From contig NZ_AP023213.1 in NCBI RefSeq assembly GCF_014218275.1, positions 2,210,001 through 2,274,000 of the forward strand: a stretch of DNA of 64,000 nucleotides, written 5' to 3'. Positions 11,511 to 30,276 of this stretch are shown piece by piece. Made by a program: the position numbers and the translations under genes. Position 1 is the stretch's first letter; the number at the start of each line of letters is the position of its first letter. The DNA is from Citrifermentans bremense (GTDB lineage Bacteria; Desulfobacterota; Desulfuromonadia; Geobacterales; Geobacteraceae). Below the pieces are notes generated by a model. That model was not told the origin of the DNA. It did no database searches and worked only from the letters and a program-made list of their open reading frames with translations.

Positions 11511-11829
11511 CGGGAGGTGCTATGCCAGATGATGTTGAAACATTGCTGTAGCTCTCCTCAATTTTCCTTCCTGCACTTACTGTCAGCGCCTTCCTCAGTG
11601 ACACCGCCTGCGAATATTCATGTCATTACCTTTTTACCTGAATAGGTAATGAGCAACATCTTTTCTTACCTGGAGGGGACGTTGAACCCTAAGACTTAAC
11701 GAGAAGAACCAGCTACGAATATGGCTCATTCGCGCCCGCTTTTATGCCACTGCACTCTTTTTTAAATATTGGTGCAAATTAATTTTGCTCCGATATACTC
11801 TACTGCATTTCGCGAAAAAGGACGCTGTC
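11511..11829 (+). other. gene-free stretch before the signalling array
   Basis: No coding sequence is seen. It contains an inverted repeat, CATTACCT (11624-11631) and AGGTAATG (11644-11651), that could be an operator or weak hairpin. A possible promoter (TTGGTG at 11769, TATACT at 11794, spacing 19) lies just before the first kinase gene. Confidence 0.4.
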
Positions 11830-23605: not shown

Positions 23606-26470
23606 ATGGAACCATTGAACCGGCCGTTGAAGGACATAGCGCTCCTGCTGGTTGAGGACGAAATCGAGGCGCGGGACATGCTGGCCCGGATGCTCGGGCT
23701 CAACTACCAGGGGGTGAGGATATACACCGCCGACGATGGGGTGAGCGGCCTGGAGACCTACCGCCAGTTCCGGCCCGAGATCGTGGTCACCGACATCAAC
23801 ATGCCGCAGATGAACGGCATCGCCATGGCGCGCGAGATCAAGGCGCTAGACCCGGAGGCGACCATCGTCGCCGTGACCGCCCACAGCGAGACCAATTACC
23901 TTTTGAGCTCCATAGAGAAAGGGATGGACCACTACGTGCTGAAGCCGGTGAACTACCCGGAGCTTTTCCACGTGCTGGACCGCATCGCCGACAAGATCGT
24001 GCTGAAGCGCCTGGTCTCGGAGCAGGTGGAGCGGATCAGGCGCCGCGAGCAGCAGCTCTCCCAGGCCGAGAGAATCACCCACCTGGGAAGCTGGGAGTTG
24101 AACCTTGAGACCGGCGAGTCGGTCTGGTCGGATGAGCTATACCGCATCCTGGGTCTCGAGCCCGAGAGCGTCCCGGCTACCTTCGATGCGCTTTTGCAGA
24201 TGCTGCACCCGGCCGACCGGGAGACCCTGGAAAAGGCGGTACGGCAGCTGCGCGAGACCGGCAGCGCGCCGGGTACCCAGTACTACCGCCTTTTGCGCCC
24301 CGACGGGGAGACGAGGATCGTGCGCGGCCAGCTCGAGGCGGTAAGGGACGGCGAGAGCGGCCGTCAGACCGTCATCGGCGCCTGTCACGACGTCACCGAG
24401 CTGAAATGGGCCGAGGCCGCCCTGCGAGCCTCGGAGCGGCGCTTTTCCAAGATATTCCAGGCGACCCCGGACCTCCTGAGCATCACGAGCCTCAAGGACG
24501 GGATCATCCTGGAGGTGAACGAGGCGTTTCTTCGGGCCCTTGGATACGAGCGCCAGGAAGTCGTCGGCACCTACGCGGGGGAACTCGGGCTCTGGGCGGA
24601 CTCGGACCAGCCGGGAGCCCTCTTGCAGCAGCTAGAAGAGCGGGGGGAGGTGCGCGACATCGAGGTGCGGCTCAAGGGGAGAAACGGCCGGGAGCTCGAG
24701 GGGCTCGTGTCGGCGGAGCTGATCGAGATCAACGGGAGCCCCTACCTGCTCACGCTCTTCAAGGACATAAGCGAGAGAAAGAGGCTCGAGGAGGACCGGG
24801 CCAGGCTTGCCGCCATCGTCGAATCCTCCGACGACGCCATCATGGCGGTGGACCGCGAGGGGGCGATCACCAGCTGGAACGCCGGGGCCGAGAAGATGTT
24901 CGGCTATTCGGCCCAGGACATGAAGGGGGTGCACCTCTCCTTCCTGGTCTCCCCGGACCAAAAGGAGCAGGTCCTCTGCCTGAACGACGGCATCCGCAGC
25001 GACGGCGCGGTCACCCACTGCGAGGTGGTGCACGTCACCCGGGGTGGGAGGCAGATCTACGTCTCCCTCACCATGTCCCCCATAAAAAGCGCCGACGGCA
25101 GCATCGTCGGCACCTCCTGCATCGCGCGCGACGTCACCGAACGGACCCGCATGGAGGAGATCATCAAGCACCAGGCCCAGCACGACACCCTGACCGATCT
25201 TCCCAACCGCAAGCTCTTCGGGGACTTCCTGAACCTAGAGCTCGCGCAGGCGCGCCGCAACAGGAAGAGCCTTGCCGTGCTCTTCATGGATCTGGACCGC
25301 TTCAAGCAGGTCAACGACAACTTCGGGCATCAGGCCGGGGACGACCTGCTGAAGGCGGTGGCGCAAAGGCTCAAGCGCTGCGTCCGCGAGTCCGACACGG
25401 TAGCGCGCATAAGCGGCGACGAGTTCAACGTCCTGATGCCGGACCTGACCCAGACCGACGACGTCGGCATCGTGGTCGGAAAGATCATGGGGGTGTTCCA
25501 GACCCCGTTCGTCCTCGAAGGGGCCGAGCTGAAGGTGACCACCAGCGTCGGCGTGAGCATGTTCCCCGACGACGGCGACTCGGCGCAGGAGCTTCTGCAA
25601 AAGGCCGACGGGGCGATGTACGTCGCCAAGCAGACCGAAGGTAACAGCTACCAGTTCTACAACAGCGAGATCAACGCGCGCACCGTGACGCGTCAGAACA
25701 TGGAGCGCCGCCTGCGCGAGGCGGTGCTCAAAAACGAGCTGGAGCTGGTCTACCAGCCGCTTTTGAGTCTAGAGTCCGGCCTGATAGTAGGGGCCGAGGC
25801 CCTCTTGCGCTGGCGCCACCCTGAGCAGGGGCTCCTCTTGCCTTCGCAGTTTCTCCCCATTGCCGAGGAGACAGGAGTCATCGTCCCCATAGGGGAATGG
25901 GTCATCTTCAACGCCTGCAGGCAGATGCGCCTGTGGCAGCGACAGGGGTTCGACCTGAGCGTTGCGGTAAACCTCTCCCACCGTGAGTTCAATCAGCCCA
26001 ACTTCATCGACCTGGCCCTGCGGGCCCTCTCCCAAAGCGGCCTGGACCCCGCCTCCCTGGAGCTCGACGTGCCCGAGAAGGCCATCATGGACAACCCCGC
26101 CTTCTCGCTTCGCAACATGCGCCGGCTCACCGACATCGGCGTCGCCTTCTCGGTGGACGACTTCGGCGTCGGCGCCTCTTCCCTTTCGCGGATCAAGGAA
26201 CTTCCCATCGCCAAGGTCAAGATCGACCGCAGCTTCATCAGGGACATCCTGACCGAGCCCAACGACCTCGACGTGGTCTCGGCGGTCATCTGCATGTCGC
26301 ACAGCCTCAAGATGCGGGTCAACGCGGTAGGTGTCGAGTCGCACGAGCAGCTTGAGCTTGTGGAAAGCTTCGGCTGCGACGAGGTCCAGGGCGACCTGAT
26401 CAGTGCGCCGCTTCCCCCGCACGAGTTCGAGCGCCTCTTGATCGATGGAGGGGTTCATGCCGAATTCTGA
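23606..26470 (+). CDS. REC-PAS-PAS-PAS-GGDEF-EAL c-di-GMP signalling protein
   Basis: A 954-residue protein with receiver (10-130; Asp in VVTDINMPQMNG), about three PAS domains (150-520), GGDEF (535-690) and EAL (700-950). The diguanylate cyclase site reads SGDEF (from residue 603) with an intact inhibitory RxxD five residues upstream (RESD), so cyclase activity with product inhibition is plausible. The EAL domain keeps EALLRW, VNLSHREF, DDFG (Asp851) and KID (Lys872). It has Asp821 where the first Glu of E(I/L)TE should be, and Val908 where the catalytic Glu of EGVE should be. Phosphodiesterase activity is therefore doubtful. The start follows the previous stop by two bases. The REC-PAS half matches the kinase at 18443. 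Confidence 0.93.
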   Translation: MEPLNRPLKDIALLLVEDEIEARDMLARMLGLNYQGVRIYTADDGVSGLETYRQFRPEIVVTDINMPQMNGIAMAREIKALDPEATIVAVTAHSETNYLLSSIEKGMDHYVLKPVNYPELFHVLDRIADKIVLKRLVSEQVERIRRREQQLSQAERITHLGSWELNLETGESVWSDELYRILGLEPESVPATFDALLQMLHPADRETLEKAVRQLRETGSAPGTQYYRLLRPDGETRIVRGQLEAVRDGESGRQTVIGACHDVTELKWAEAALRASERRFSKIFQATPDLLSITSLKDGIILEVNEAFLRALGYERQEVVGTYAGELGLWADSDQPGALLQQLEERGEVRDIEVRLKGRNGRELEGLVSAELIEINGSPYLLTLFKDISERKRLEEDRARLAAIVESSDDAIMAVDREGAITSWNAGAEKMFGYSAQDMKGVHLSFLVSPDQKEQVLCLNDGIRSDGAVTHCEVVHVTRGGRQIYVSLTMSPIKSADGSIVGTSCIARDVTERTRMEEIIKHQAQHDTLTDLPNRKLFGDFLNLELAQARRNRKSLAVLFMDLDRFKQVNDNFGHQAGDDLLKAVAQRLKRCVRESDTVARISGDEFNVLMPDLTQTDDVGIVVGKIMGVFQTPFVLEGAELKVTTSVGVSMFPDDGDSAQELLQKADGAMYVAKQTEGNSYQFYNSEINARTVTRQNMERRLREAVLKNELELVYQPLLSLESGLIVGAEALLRWRHPEQGLLLPSQFLPIAEETGVIVPIGEWVIFNACRQMRLWQRQGFDLSVAVNLSHREFNQPNFIDLALRALSQSGLDPASLELDVPEKAIMDNPAFSLRNMRRLTDIGVAFSVDDFGVGASSLSRIKELPIAKVKIDRSFIRDILTEPNDLDVVSAVICMSHSLKMRVNAVGVESHEQLELVESFGCDEVQGDLISAPLPPHEFERLLIDGGVHAEF

Positions 26471-27809
26471 GCCGCTTTGCCTCGTCATCATCCCCTACGA
26501 CAGGAAAAAGGACGCCGCCGGCAAGGTGGTCGACTACGAAACGGTGTACCGCCGGTTGATCGTGCCGGCCGTGGAGGGGGCCGGCCTCGTGCCGCTGCGC
26601 GCCGACGAGCAAAGGAGCGGGTGCCTCAACTTCAGTCAACCGCTGGAGCGGTTGAGGTACTGCGACTGCGCTTTGGCCGACATCTCCACCGGAGACCCCA
26701 GGGTCTTCTACCAGCTCGGGATCAGGCTGGCGGTGCATCCGGTTCCGGCGCTCCTAGTCTATGCGGCGGGTTGCGCCCATCTGCCGCTGGAGGCGGAGGA
26801 TCTTCCCGCCTTCCCTTACCGCGTGTCGCCGCACGGCCAGCCGATGCACGAGGCGAAGTACCGCGCGCTTTTGACGCAAAGGCTTTTGGAGCTGATGGAT
26901 GGGGCGGGGGAAAGCGCGGTGTACCGGGGGGTGCGGGGGGAAGGCGAGGAGGGGAGGGCGCAGCGGGAGAGGATAGCGGGGCGGGAGCTTCACGCGACCG
27001 TCTTCGCCAACCTGCTGAAAAAAGGAAGGACTGGGGGGATCGCGGCCTTGCGCGAACTGCAGTCGGAACTTGGCGACCTGGTCGAGGTCGACCCAGCCGA
27101 TCTCGTCGAACTCCTTCTGAGCTACCGCGCGGTGAACGGCTGGGGCGAGATGGTGGAACTGGTGCGGCAGATGCCCCCGTCCCTTGCGGGAAGCGTCCTG
27201 GTGCAGCAGCAACTGGGACTGGCACTCAACTGGTCGGGCGAACGGGAGCAGGCGGAGCAGGTGCTCAGGCAGCTGATCGCACGACGCGGACCGAGCGGCG
27301 ACAGCTACGGCATCCTGGGGCGGATACTGAAGGACGGGTGGGAAAAAGCGCTGGAAAAAGGCGACATGGAGCTTGCCAGGGAACTGCTGCAGAAATCGGC
27401 CTCGGCCTACCTGAAGGGGTTCGAGGCGGACTGGCGCAGCACCTACCCAGGCGTCAACGCGGTGCTCCTCATGGAGCTTAAGGATCCGGCGGACCCGCGC
27501 CGCCGCGAGATCCTCCCCGTGGTGCACTACGCGGTGGAGCAGCGCATCCGCTCGGGGGCAGCCGACTACTGGGATTACGCCACGCTCTTGGAGCTGGCCG
27601 CTTTATCCTGCTACGAGGCGAAGGGAAGGGATGCGCTGGGGCGCAGCCTCGCCATGGTGCGCGAGGCGTGGGAGCCGGAGACGACAGCGCGCGACCTTCG
27701 GCTGATCCGGGAGGCGCGCCAGCGTCGCGGGGCGGAGTGTCCGGCCTGGGCCGACTACGCCGAGGCAGAGCTGCAGAAGGCGGCCGAGCGGGGCACGGCG
27801 CGCCCCTGA
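26457..27809 (+). CDS. DRHyd plus TPR-S/TRAFs-binding domain protein (ASK1-signalosome-like)
   Basis: A 450-residue cytoplasmic protein. Residues 7-125 show the pattern of the deoxyribohydrolase/TIR-like DRHyd fold: CLVIIPYDRKKD, RADEQRSG, CDCALADIST (Asp75) and DPRVFYQLGIRLA. Active relatives have Glu in the FYELG position; here it is Gln86, so catalysis is probably lost. Residues about 165-440 form helical repeats matching the TRAFs-binding/TPR-S (DUF4071) region of animal ASK kinases (RELQSELGDLVEVDPADLVELLLSYRAVNGWGEMV and KGFEADWRSTYPGVNAVLL in outline). The ATG at 26457 has GGAGG close upstream and overlaps the end of the GGDEF-EAL gene by 14 bases; an ATG at 26445 is possible. Family assignment is from memory of motifs; function here is unknown. 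Confidence 0.8.
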   Translation: MPNSEPLCLVIIPYDRKKDAAGKVVDYETVYRRLIVPAVEGAGLVPLRADEQRSGCLNFSQPLERLRYCDCALADISTGDPRVFYQLGIRLAVHPVPALLVYAAGCAHLPLEAEDLPAFPYRVSPHGQPMHEAKYRALLTQRLLELMDGAGESAVYRGVRGEGEEGRAQRERIAGRELHATVFANLLKKGRTGGIAALRELQSELGDLVEVDPADLVELLLSYRAVNGWGEMVELVRQMPPSLAGSVLVQQQLGLALNWSGEREQAEQVLRQLIARRGPSGDSYGILGRILKDGWEKALEKGDMELARELLQKSASAYLKGFEADWRSTYPGVNAVLLMELKDPADPRRREILPVVHYAVEQRIRSGAADYWDYATLLELAALSCYEAKGRDALGRSLAMVREAWEPETTARDLRLIREARQRRGAECPAWADYAEAELQKAAERGTARP

Positions 27810-27813
27810 ACGG

Positions 27814-28134
27814 TTAGAGCTTGCCGAACGCCCGCAGGAACTGCGGCAGCAGCAACGGCGCGTCGGATTTGATGGCGCCGCCCAAAAAATCCATGATGCC
27901 GGGGCGGTAACCGTCGTACCAGATCTTGCTGAACATCTCTGCGCTGGTCCGGCAGGAGCAGCCCGCTTCCCCGGCGACGCCCTCCACCTCGCAGCTTTCG
28001 GCAGATATTGCCACCGTGATGGAAGATTCTCCCACGTTAAAGCGGAATACAGTTCTGTCGGTGAAGACCCCTTTGCAGAACAAAGCCCCCATCTCTTCGG
28101 TAATAGCTTCCACGAGTTTCTGATCTTCATGCAT
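27814..28134 (-). CDS. SCP2 sterol-carrier-like protein
   Basis: A 106-residue single-domain protein of the SCP2 sterol-carrier superfamily, a small alpha/beta fold with a lipid-binding cavity. The C-terminal block MFSKIWYDGYRPGIMDFLGG followed by IKSDAPLLLPQFLRAFGK is typical of the bacterial stand-alone members. The ATG at 28134 has GGGAG nine bases upstream; a TTG at 28143 has no usable SD. It ends four bases from the convergent end of the DRHyd/TPR-S gene and is divergent from the fatty-acid degradation genes. A role in binding fatty acyl chains is an inference from family and neighbourhood. A 7-bp hairpin (28190-28206) lies in its upstream region. Confidence 0.85.
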   Translation of the reverse strand: MHEDQKLVEAITEEMGALFCKGVFTDRTVFRFNVGESSITVAISAESCEVEGVAGEAGCSCRTSAEMFSKIWYDGYRPGIMDFLGGAIKSDAPLLLPQFLRAFGKL

Positions 28135-28464
28135 GACTCTCAACTCCCTTATCTAAATATCAGTATCAGCGACAGTTCCTGTGTCAGCACTTCGGCCTCG
28201 CCGAAGGGTGGCAAAGAGACGGGGTGACTGTCAGCAGACTTTTTTGAGTTACGCCGGTTGTACAACGACGACCGCGGGATAATATTGGTGATTACCGCCG
28301 AAGTCAAACCATTCCTTATAACACGGCAGGTAGCTTATTCGTAGCTGGAACAGCATTTAAATTCCAACAAGAACATTTTTCACTGCTTGATATATATCTG
28401 CTTCATGTACTATCCTTTGAGCAACGGGGCTTTTTCTTTTCCAGTTTATCCACCGGAGTCAGTC
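28135..28464 (+). promoter_or_regulatory. divergent regulatory region between SCP2-like gene and fad block
   Basis: No gene is seen. A hairpin CTTCGGC-CTC-GCCGAAG lies at 28190-28206. A candidate promoter for the fad block has TTGTAC (28258-28263) and TAATAT (28280-28285) with 16-base spacing, about 180 bases before the ligase ATG. I found no convincing FadR-type operator by eye. Confidence 0.4.
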
Positions 28465-30276
28465 ATGGAAAGGGTTCCTTACCGGTCCATACCAGACATG
28501 CTGAGACACAGCGCCGCAAAGTTCCGGGCGCTTAACGCCGTCCAGTTCAGAAAGAACGGGCAGTGGGTGATCTTGAGCTACGCCCAGTTCTACGACCGGG
28601 CCCTCATGGTATCGCGGGGGCTGCGCAAACTGGGGGTTAAACCTGGGGACAGGGTCGCCATCTTGTCCGAGAACCGCGCCGGATGGATCATCGCCGACAT
28701 GGGGATCCTTTGCGCCGGCGGAGTGACCGTCCCGATCTACGCCACCGGGACCCCAGACCAGGTAGCCTACGCGCTCTCCAACTGCAGGGTGCGCATCGTC
28801 TTCGTCTCCGGCAGGGGTCAGTACCGAAAGCTGCTCCAGGTGCGCGATTCGCTCCCCGACCTGGAGCTCGTGGTCTCCTTCGAGCGTTTTTTAGGCGAGG
28901 CGGCGCTGCCGGTGACGACCTTCTACCAGTTGAGCGAGGTGGACGACCCCATCCTCGACCTGGAGAGGTCGGAGATCGAGTCGGTGATGGACTCGATCTC
29001 CCCGGAGACGCCGGCCACCATCATCTACACCTCGGGAACTACCGGCACCCCCAAGGGGGCGATACTAACCCACGGCAACCTCGTTTTCGACGTCTGGGCC
29101 ACCCACGAGAAGGTGGGGGGGGTGGGGCAGGGGGACCTCTTACTCAGCTTTCTCCCCTTGAGCCACGTCTTCGAGCGCAGCGCCGGGTACTACCTCCCCC
29201 TTTCCCGCGGTGCCACCATCGCCTTCGCCGACAGCATGGAGAAGATCTCGGAGAACATGATTGAGCTGCACCCGACCATCATGGTCTGCGTGCCAAGGTT
29301 TTTCGAGAAGATCTACTCCCGCATCTACGAGGCGGTGCACCAGCTGTCGCTTTTCAAGAGGAAGATGTTCCGCCACGCGCTTTCCGTCGGGCGTCGCTAC
29401 GTCTACGCGCGCTACATCGACAGGTACGTGCCGCTTTGGCTCTCCTTCCAGCATGCGGTAGCTGACCGCCTGGTGTTCAGTAAGCTGCGCCGGCGTTTCG
29501 GCGACCGGCTCAAGTTCTGCGCCAGCGGCGGCGCACCCCTGGACCGGGAGATCAACGAGTTCTTCTGGATCATCGGCGTCCCGGTCTTCGAGGGGTACGG
29601 TCTCACCGAGACCAGCCCGGTACTTTGCAGCAACAGCTTCGACGCGCTCCGCTTCGGGTCGGTGGGGACCCCCCTTGCCTCGACGGAGATCGCCATAGCC
29701 GAGGACGGCGAGGTGCTGGCGCGCGGACCGCAGGTAATGGCGGGGTACTTCAGGGACGAGGCAGCGACCCGGGAGGTGCTTAAGGACGGCTGGTTCAAAA
29801 CCGGCGACATCGGCCACATGGAGGAGGGCTTTCTCTACATCACGGACCGAAAGAAAGACCTGATCGTCACCTCAGGCGGCAAGAACATCGCTCCCCAGCC
29901 GATCGAGAACCTCCTGAAGCGGGACAAGTACATTTCCCAGGCCTATGTCTACGGCGACAAGAAGCCGTACCTGACCGCGCTTTTGGTCCCGACCGTGGAG
30001 AGGCTCCTGGAATTCGCCCAGGAGAAGAAGATCGCCTACCACGACCTGGAGGACCTCGTCGTGCACCAGCCGGTGTTCGAGCTGTACCGAAGCCGCGTCG
30101 AAGCGGTCAACAACGAGCTCGCACCGTACCAGACCATCAAGAAATTCGCCCTGCTGCCGCGGGACTTCACCATGGAAAGCGGCGAACTGACCCCGACACT
30201 CAAGGTGAAACGGCAGGTGATCTCGGAGCGGTACCGGGACCGGATAGACCGACTTTACGAAGGCAGCGACAGCTAG
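28465..30276 (+). CDS. long-chain fatty-acid--CoA ligase (AMP-binding)
   Basis: A 603-residue acyl-CoA synthetase of the ANL superfamily, activating fatty acids through an acyl-adenylate for beta-oxidation. The P-loop TIIYTSGTTGTPKGAILTH is near residue 190, with YGLTETSP near 400, GWFKTGDIG near 460 and the hinge DRKKDLIVTSGGKNIAPQPI following. The FadD15-like length and the HQLSLFKRKMF region between P-loop and TETS fit long-chain enzymes of this type. GGAG lies seven bases before the ATG; an upstream in-frame TTG at 28387 has no support. It precedes fadN by 23 bases and probably heads the beta-oxidation operon. Confidence 0.92.
   Translation: MERVPYRSIPDMLRHSAAKFRALNAVQFRKNGQWVILSYAQFYDRALMVSRGLRKLGVKPGDRVAILSENRAGWIIADMGILCAGGVTVPIYATGTPDQVAYALSNCRVRIVFVSGRGQYRKLLQVRDSLPDLELVVSFERFLGEAALPVTTFYQLSEVDDPILDLERSEIESVMDSISPETPATIIYTSGTTGTPKGAILTHGNLVFDVWATHEKVGGVGQGDLLLSFLPLSHVFERSAGYYLPLSRGATIAFADSMEKISENMIELHPTIMVCVPRFFEKIYSRIYEAVHQLSLFKRKMFRHALSVGRRYVYARYIDRYVPLWLSFQHAVADRLVFSKLRRRFGDRLKFCASGGAPLDREINEFFWIIGVPVFEGYGLTETSPVLCSNSFDALRFGSVGTPLASTEIAIAEDGEVLARGPQVMAGYFRDEAATREVLKDGWFKTGDIGHMEEGFLYITDRKKDLIVTSGGKNIAPQPIENLLKRDKYISQAYVYGDKKPYLTALLVPTVERLLEFAQEKKIAYHDLEDLVVHQPVFELYRSRVEAVNNELAPYQTIKKFALLPRDFTMESGELTPTLKVKRQVISERYRDRIDRLYEGSDS

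Follow-up and report, generated by a model that had tools for sequence, protein, structure and literature searches.

A probable pseudoenzyme related to the two-domain front half of ASK1 beside a signalling gene array in Citrifermentans bremense

The DRHyd-TPR-S gene and its predicted protein

The window, as we call the whole stretch of DNA analysed, comprises 64,000 nucleotides of Citrifermentans bremense contig NZ_AP023213.1 (positions 2,210,001 to 2,274,000 of the forward strand). From position 11785 on it carries nine co-directional genes, in the order HK, REC, a 687-aa protein without Pfam match, GAF-HK, REC, REC-PAS-HK, multi-PAS-HK, REC-PAS-GGDEF-EAL (hereafter the EAL gene) and, as the last one, a DRHyd-TPR-S gene. 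Downstream of the latter lie a small open-reading frame on the opposite strand and then an acyl-CoA synthetase gene, and the open-reading frames beyond these are, as we read them from the sequence, presumably beta-oxidation genes. The features of the locus are as follows.

23606..26470, forward strand: REC-PAS-GGDEF-EAL gene, its 3' end overlapping the start of the DRHyd-TPR-S gene
26457..27809, forward strand: ASK1-like DRHyd-TPR-S protein, putative pseudo-DRHyd, 450 aa (open frame of 450 codons)
26457..26912, forward strand: DRHyd domain and its C-terminal helix, residues 1-152 (model pLDDT 85.1; DNPH1/Rcl match)
26712-26714, forward strand: codon of Q86
26937..26996, forward strand: residues 161-180, the place of the relatives' K-T-D-x-F-R (169-174; 26961-26978), lost here
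27003..27806, forward strand: TPR / MAP3K_TRAF_bd helical repeats, residues 183-450, with the TPR-S core at 229-338 (Pfam, model)
27814..28134, reverse strand: small open-reading frame, 106 aa, without Pfam match
28387..30276, forward strand: acyl-CoA synthetase (AMP-binding), the downstream neighbour in 6/6 genus genomes with the DRHyd-TPR-S gene

The 106-aa frame on the minus strand is probably a real gene, as 16 of 19 genus genomes have a relative in the corresponding position. There is no case for recent acquisition of the DRHyd-TPR-S gene despite its raised GC (0.674 vs. 0.606 for the window), since its GC3 of 0.844 is close to that of EAL (0.889) and FadD (0.858). Plasmid carriage was likewise rejected: 28 plasmid records match the protein, the best at only 44% identity. 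No phage record matched it, it matched none of the PADLOC-DB families at E ≤ 0.01, and its sole NCBIfam match (E 0.08) was far below the cut-off.

A Pfam profile search matched both MAP3K_TRAF_bd (PF13281; 7e-55, 186.9 bits vs. a curated cut-off of 24.1) and TPR-S (PF20308; 7e-21, 75.2 bits vs. 27.6) to the protein, and the DRHyd domain was recognised by its fold. The structure model of the 450-aa protein (pLDDT 90.7) finds its best match in ASK1, spanning both domains, whilst the first domain modelled alone is best matched by DNPH1/Rcl; the predicted structure thus has the Rossmannoid, DNPH1/deoxyribosyltransferase-like fold of the DRHyd superfamily and the ASK-type fusion of a TBD-like domain to a TPR central region. 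PH and kinase domains are absent, the model being all-helical beyond residue 132 and no such Pfam match being found. The gene is confirmed as a true relative of the ASK1 front half, and the profile scores, fold and gene order bear out an earlier note on this DNA, which had proposed from the letters alone a DRHyd plus TPR-S architecture, kinship with ASK1 (MAP3K5), an overlap with the EAL gene and the last place in a nine-gene array.

Among the closest known systems is the TBD and central regulatory region of ASK1 (PDB 8qgy / 5ulm), which is alike in both domains; unlike ASK1, whose domain layout includes PH, kinase, coiled-coil and SAM parts (PMC10972558), the window protein consists of 450 aa in all and has none of these. 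The catalytic Glu that active DRHyd N-glycosidases carry in YELG is replaced: the family alignment sets Q86 on the Glu position of the Rcl YELG, as the earlier note had read it. ASK1 has a His there (FYHLGVR). In DNPH1/Rcl, E104 is the nucleophile and D80 the acid, and the exchange E104Q inactivates the human enzyme (PMC10603095); the window protein has Gln at the place of E104. DNPH1 chains, listed at ~120-165 aa, match only its first domain, and bacterial DRHyd-TPR-S ("TRAFs-binding domain-containing") proteins are homologous over their full length, with 4389 of the 7999 candidates scored reaching E ≤ 1e-3.

Loss of the DRHyd pocket in one branch

We compared 201 rows, made up of 121 proteins (the query and the best 120 of 4389) and 80 loci (the best 80 of 174). 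L092, L103 and L106-L110 were left out of the residue counts as duplicates, fragments or very distant, and L092, L103, L107 and L108 were left out of the tree. FastTree, run without the columns of residues 72-94, gave a 68-row branch around the window with a support of 100, although the grouping is not wholly independent of the site loss, because other diverged alignment columns stayed in the tree. The branch consists of the best 64 proteins including the query together with L011, L012, L013 and L085 (67 distinct sequences); of these 64 proteins only five bear Geobacter, Geobacteraceae or Geomonas names, and most are metagenomic without context.

Outside this branch residue 86 is Glu in 132/133 rows and Asn in one, whereas inside it Glu is found in 30/68 rows, Gln in 28 and other residues in ten, the substitutes across the branch being Q, N, L, T, Y, D, A or G. 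Picked after the contrast was seen, a site of eight residues (52, 59, 62, 82, 86, 117, 170 and 171) is kept entire in 127/133 outside rows; branch rows keep five of the eight at most and the window protein none. The pattern survives thinning at 80% identity (33 branch and 79 outside rows) and at 70% (17 and 44). N82, H59, R117, T170 and D171 are each kept by just 0-13% of branch rows, whilst outside the branch T170 is present in 132/133 and D171 and R174 in 133/133. The pocket is therefore nearly invariant across the 133 sampled DRHyd-TPR-S rows outside the branch, unlike in the window protein. D75, Y85, G88 and R90 remain nearly invariant in the branch, and fifteen positions are newly fixed in it (67 or 68 of 68 rows; under 40% outside).

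The loosening is concentrated in the first domain and the stretch behind it. Counting the 105 positions that are ≥97% invariant outside the branch as relaxed when they fall below 80% within it, we found 18/35 relaxed in residues 1-110, 4/8 in 111-160 and 5/5 in 161-182, but only 10/57 in the TPR part (residues 183-450), where 35/57 are unchanged; 23/40 (1-110 and 161-182 together) against 10/57 gives a Fisher p of 7e-5. Since the tree requires 11 or more switches between Glu and non-Glu at residue 86 (one of these at outside row L089) while N82, H59, R117, T170 and D171 are nearly gone from the branch, relaxation of the site seems to have come first and drift of the nucleophile afterwards. With Glu86 retained in 30/68 rows, the pocket may not be dead in every member. 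Directly behind the DRHyd domain, a K-T-D-x-F-R stretch that is near-invariant in the relatives vanishes along with the active site, and this joint loss suggests that it belongs to the pocket or couples the pocket to the TPR part.

Published work has traced parts of the ASK signalosome to bacterial conflict systems (PMC8195603) and linked DRHyd domains to NADase/cyclase roles (PMC9503650). New here is the branch-wide loss of the near-invariant DRHyd pocket with TPR-S retained; we found no account of it for bacterial DRHyd-TPR-S proteins among the titles and abstracts that our searches of open literature listed.

The gene without its pocket is not decaying; the protein is kept. Between the window and G014, dN is 0.080 and dS 0.568 (dN/dS ~0.14), with dN/dS figures of 0.063/0.382 for the DRHyd part, 0.068/0.656 for the TPR part and a looser 0.158/0.585 for residues 111-182, and a Geomonas pair gave a dN of 0.031 and a dS of 0.539. 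These values show purifying selection. All five gene copies compared are open, with 450 or 448 codons and no inner stops.

Neighbourhoods in the genus and beyond

The DRHyd-TPR-S gene is present in 6/19 genus genomes, whilst a relative of the EAL gene and the acyl-CoA synthetase gene are present in 19/19. The DRHyd-TPR-S and EAL genes adjoin in three of the six (G000, G014 and G015), with overlapping frames and with the DRHyd-TPR-S gene placed exactly between EAL and the small open-reading frame. In two Geomonas genomes (G019 and G024; L119 and L120) a 1508-aa gene, which we take from its sequence to be glutamate synthase-like, lies between them, and in the sixth genome the EAL gene is ~112 kb away. 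The other 13 genomes have EAL and acyl-CoA synthetase side by side, with the small open-reading frame between them in 12, and tblastn (1e-3) found no trace of a DRHyd-TPR-S gene in these stretches. A PAS-HK relative lies near EAL in 18/18 stretches examined, with or without the DRHyd-TPR-S gene. Given this varied placement, and a PAS-HK and EAL pair that is present regardless, the pairing of the EAL and DRHyd-TPR-S genes is not fixed.

The form of the EAL gene gives a different relationship. It is matched over its whole length in seven genomes (G000, G014, G015, G019, G024, G025 and G026), and six of these, G025 being the exception, carry the DRHyd-TPR-S gene, against 0/12 with a shorter, PAS-poorer EAL (569-707 aa, or 823 in G027, measured between stops); the Fisher p of 2.6e-4 is without correction for kinship. 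As 11 of the 12 shorter-EAL genomes cluster in a single branch of a tree of acyl-CoA synthetases, the co-occurrence may reflect one ancestral event. The same tree requires at least three presence/absence changes of the DRHyd-TPR-S gene. The survey of 19 genomes thus divides the earlier proposal that the protein is wired to the kinase/c-di-GMP array: co-occurrence with full-length EAL speaks for it, adjacency in just three of six against it.

Among the 76 non-branch loci of relatives (12 phylum names, two loci without any), 45 have a conflict-type gene no more than four places away and 31 have none so near, compared with 0/4 branch loci with one; gene calls at these loci are mechanical choices of open-reading frames. 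The seeds behind this per-locus count were drawn from the neighbours of these very loci together with G032 and G038, which makes it, and the contrast of 74/531 near with 16/402 far genes, partly circular. Pfam without chosen seeds was applied to 87 of the 126 contiguous same-strand neighbours (from 56/76 loci) and yielded TPR-S 16, TIR_2 14, ThsB_TIR 8, patatin 7, nSTAND1 4, SLATT_3 4, QueC 3 and CHAT 3. From the 215 genes lying five to eight places off, a random sample of 87 gave TIR_2 3, with TPR-S not among the families of two or more members and the one-member families listed only in part. Effectors that share TPR-S and lie next to DRHyd-TPR-S genes have alpha/beta hydrolase, patatin, CHAT or trypsin domains. 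The window gene, by contrast, is flanked by signalling and metabolism genes, and its scanned neighbours (HK/REC/PAS/GGDEF-EAL and AMP-binding) form no TPR-S multi-effector locus; its own genome has no second TPR-S above the Pfam cut-off, with one weak match elsewhere (25.3 bits).

Two further genomes of the same family carry DRHyd-TPR-S copies in a different setting. In G032 (L106) the copy keeps Glu86 and an intact motif and adjoins a 1523-aa TIR protein with a sub-cut-off NACHT match, and it is spread over several consecutive open-reading frames and looks broken. G038 (L107) has two MAP3K_TRAF_bd-matching DRHyd/TPR-S genes of 460 and 648 aa in opposite directions, with Glu86 kept and a patatin gene downstream. 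At L020, L038, L069, L074, L075 and L088, sets of TGT (with or without TIR), OGG-like HhH, QueC and ThsB-type TIR genes recur together beside DRHyd-TPR-S genes, L088 lacking a QueC call. OGG, QueC and TGT are known as accessory genes of type IV CBASS; the genes scanned included no nucleotidyltransferase, although the scan was no systematic search for one.

Interpretation of the DRHyd-TPR-S protein

The TPR part that is mostly unchanged, together with a dN/dS of ~0.14, argues for a maintained pseudoenzyme that corresponds in its two domains to the front half of ASK1, in which the DRHyd pocket is lost and TPR-S kept, and we regard this as the probable explanation. The lost pocket would be of the N-glycosidase/NADase type and catalysis would have gone with it; its loss supports the binding rather than enzymatic role suggested in the earlier note. 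The ancestor would have been a DRHyd-TPR-S protein with an intact pocket, of the type often found among conflict/immunity genes. The presumably dead DRHyd domain may now serve for ligand binding or for docking, and by packing on the TPR-S solenoid it would determine what the TPR groove accepts; its output would presumably be regulatory. In ASK1 the TBD of one protomer rests on the partner protomer's TPR domain, and the proposed action of thioredoxin is to influence this contact (PMC10972558). By analogy, the DRHyd domain may sit on the TPR part of a partner chain in a similar dimer.

Several other explanations were weighed against the maintained pseudoenzyme. One is compatible with it, so that both can hold: the protein may act in the upstream phosphorelay/c-di-GMP array as scaffold or effector, co-produced with the REC-PAS-GGDEF-EAL protein by virtue of the gene overlap and bound to array proteins. 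The overlapping frames in G000, G014 and G015, the eight co-directional signalling-type genes upstream and the presence of the gene in 6/7 full-length-EAL genomes vs. 0/12 others favour it, but EAL adjoins the gene in just 3/6 and is found in 19/19 genomes against 6/19, G025 has a full-length EAL yet no DRHyd-TPR-S gene, 11/12 of the shorter-EAL genomes are one branch, and the recurrent neighbours elsewhere are conflict-type proteins; we consider it unlikely, and the array is one candidate partner. A still active enzyme of changed chemistry or substrate, its pocket rebuilt rather than lost, would account for the near-invariance of D75, Y85, G88 and R90 and for the residues newly fixed in the branch. 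However, different branch rows have any of eight residues in place of the nucleophile, hardly the picture of a single new active site, and we give this explanation little credence.

A similarly improbable role is that of a standalone conflict/immunity sensor, for example one titrating a signal from TIR/DRHyd enzymes; relatives do adjoin TIR, patatin-TPR-S, CHAT-TPR-S and STAND proteins, but the window gene occupies a shared chromosomal site beside metabolism genes, its genome has no other TPR-S above the Pfam cut-off, and neither phage records nor PADLOC matched the protein. Patchy presence (6/19 genus genomes) and the repeated presence/absence changes on the acyl-CoA synthetase tree could also point to a decaying remnant of an old defence locus, yet five open copies with a dN/dS well under 1 and the 35/57 unchanged TPR positions make this very improbable.

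Returning to the maintained pseudoenzyme, it is possible, and we put this forward tentatively, that the Geobacter-type branch has domesticated a DRHyd-TPR-S enzyme of immune type, turning it into a signalling module without catalysis, possibly now serving the c-di-GMP array, and so repeated independently the replaced catalytic residue of the animal ASK lineage. The branch keeps the two domains together with the pocket dismantled and therefore offers a natural experiment on the function of the pair beyond catalysis, for which the relatives with an intact pocket are the matched control. If the domestication is true, the branch would provide a simple, genetically tractable two-domain model of the ASK front half without enzyme or kinase.
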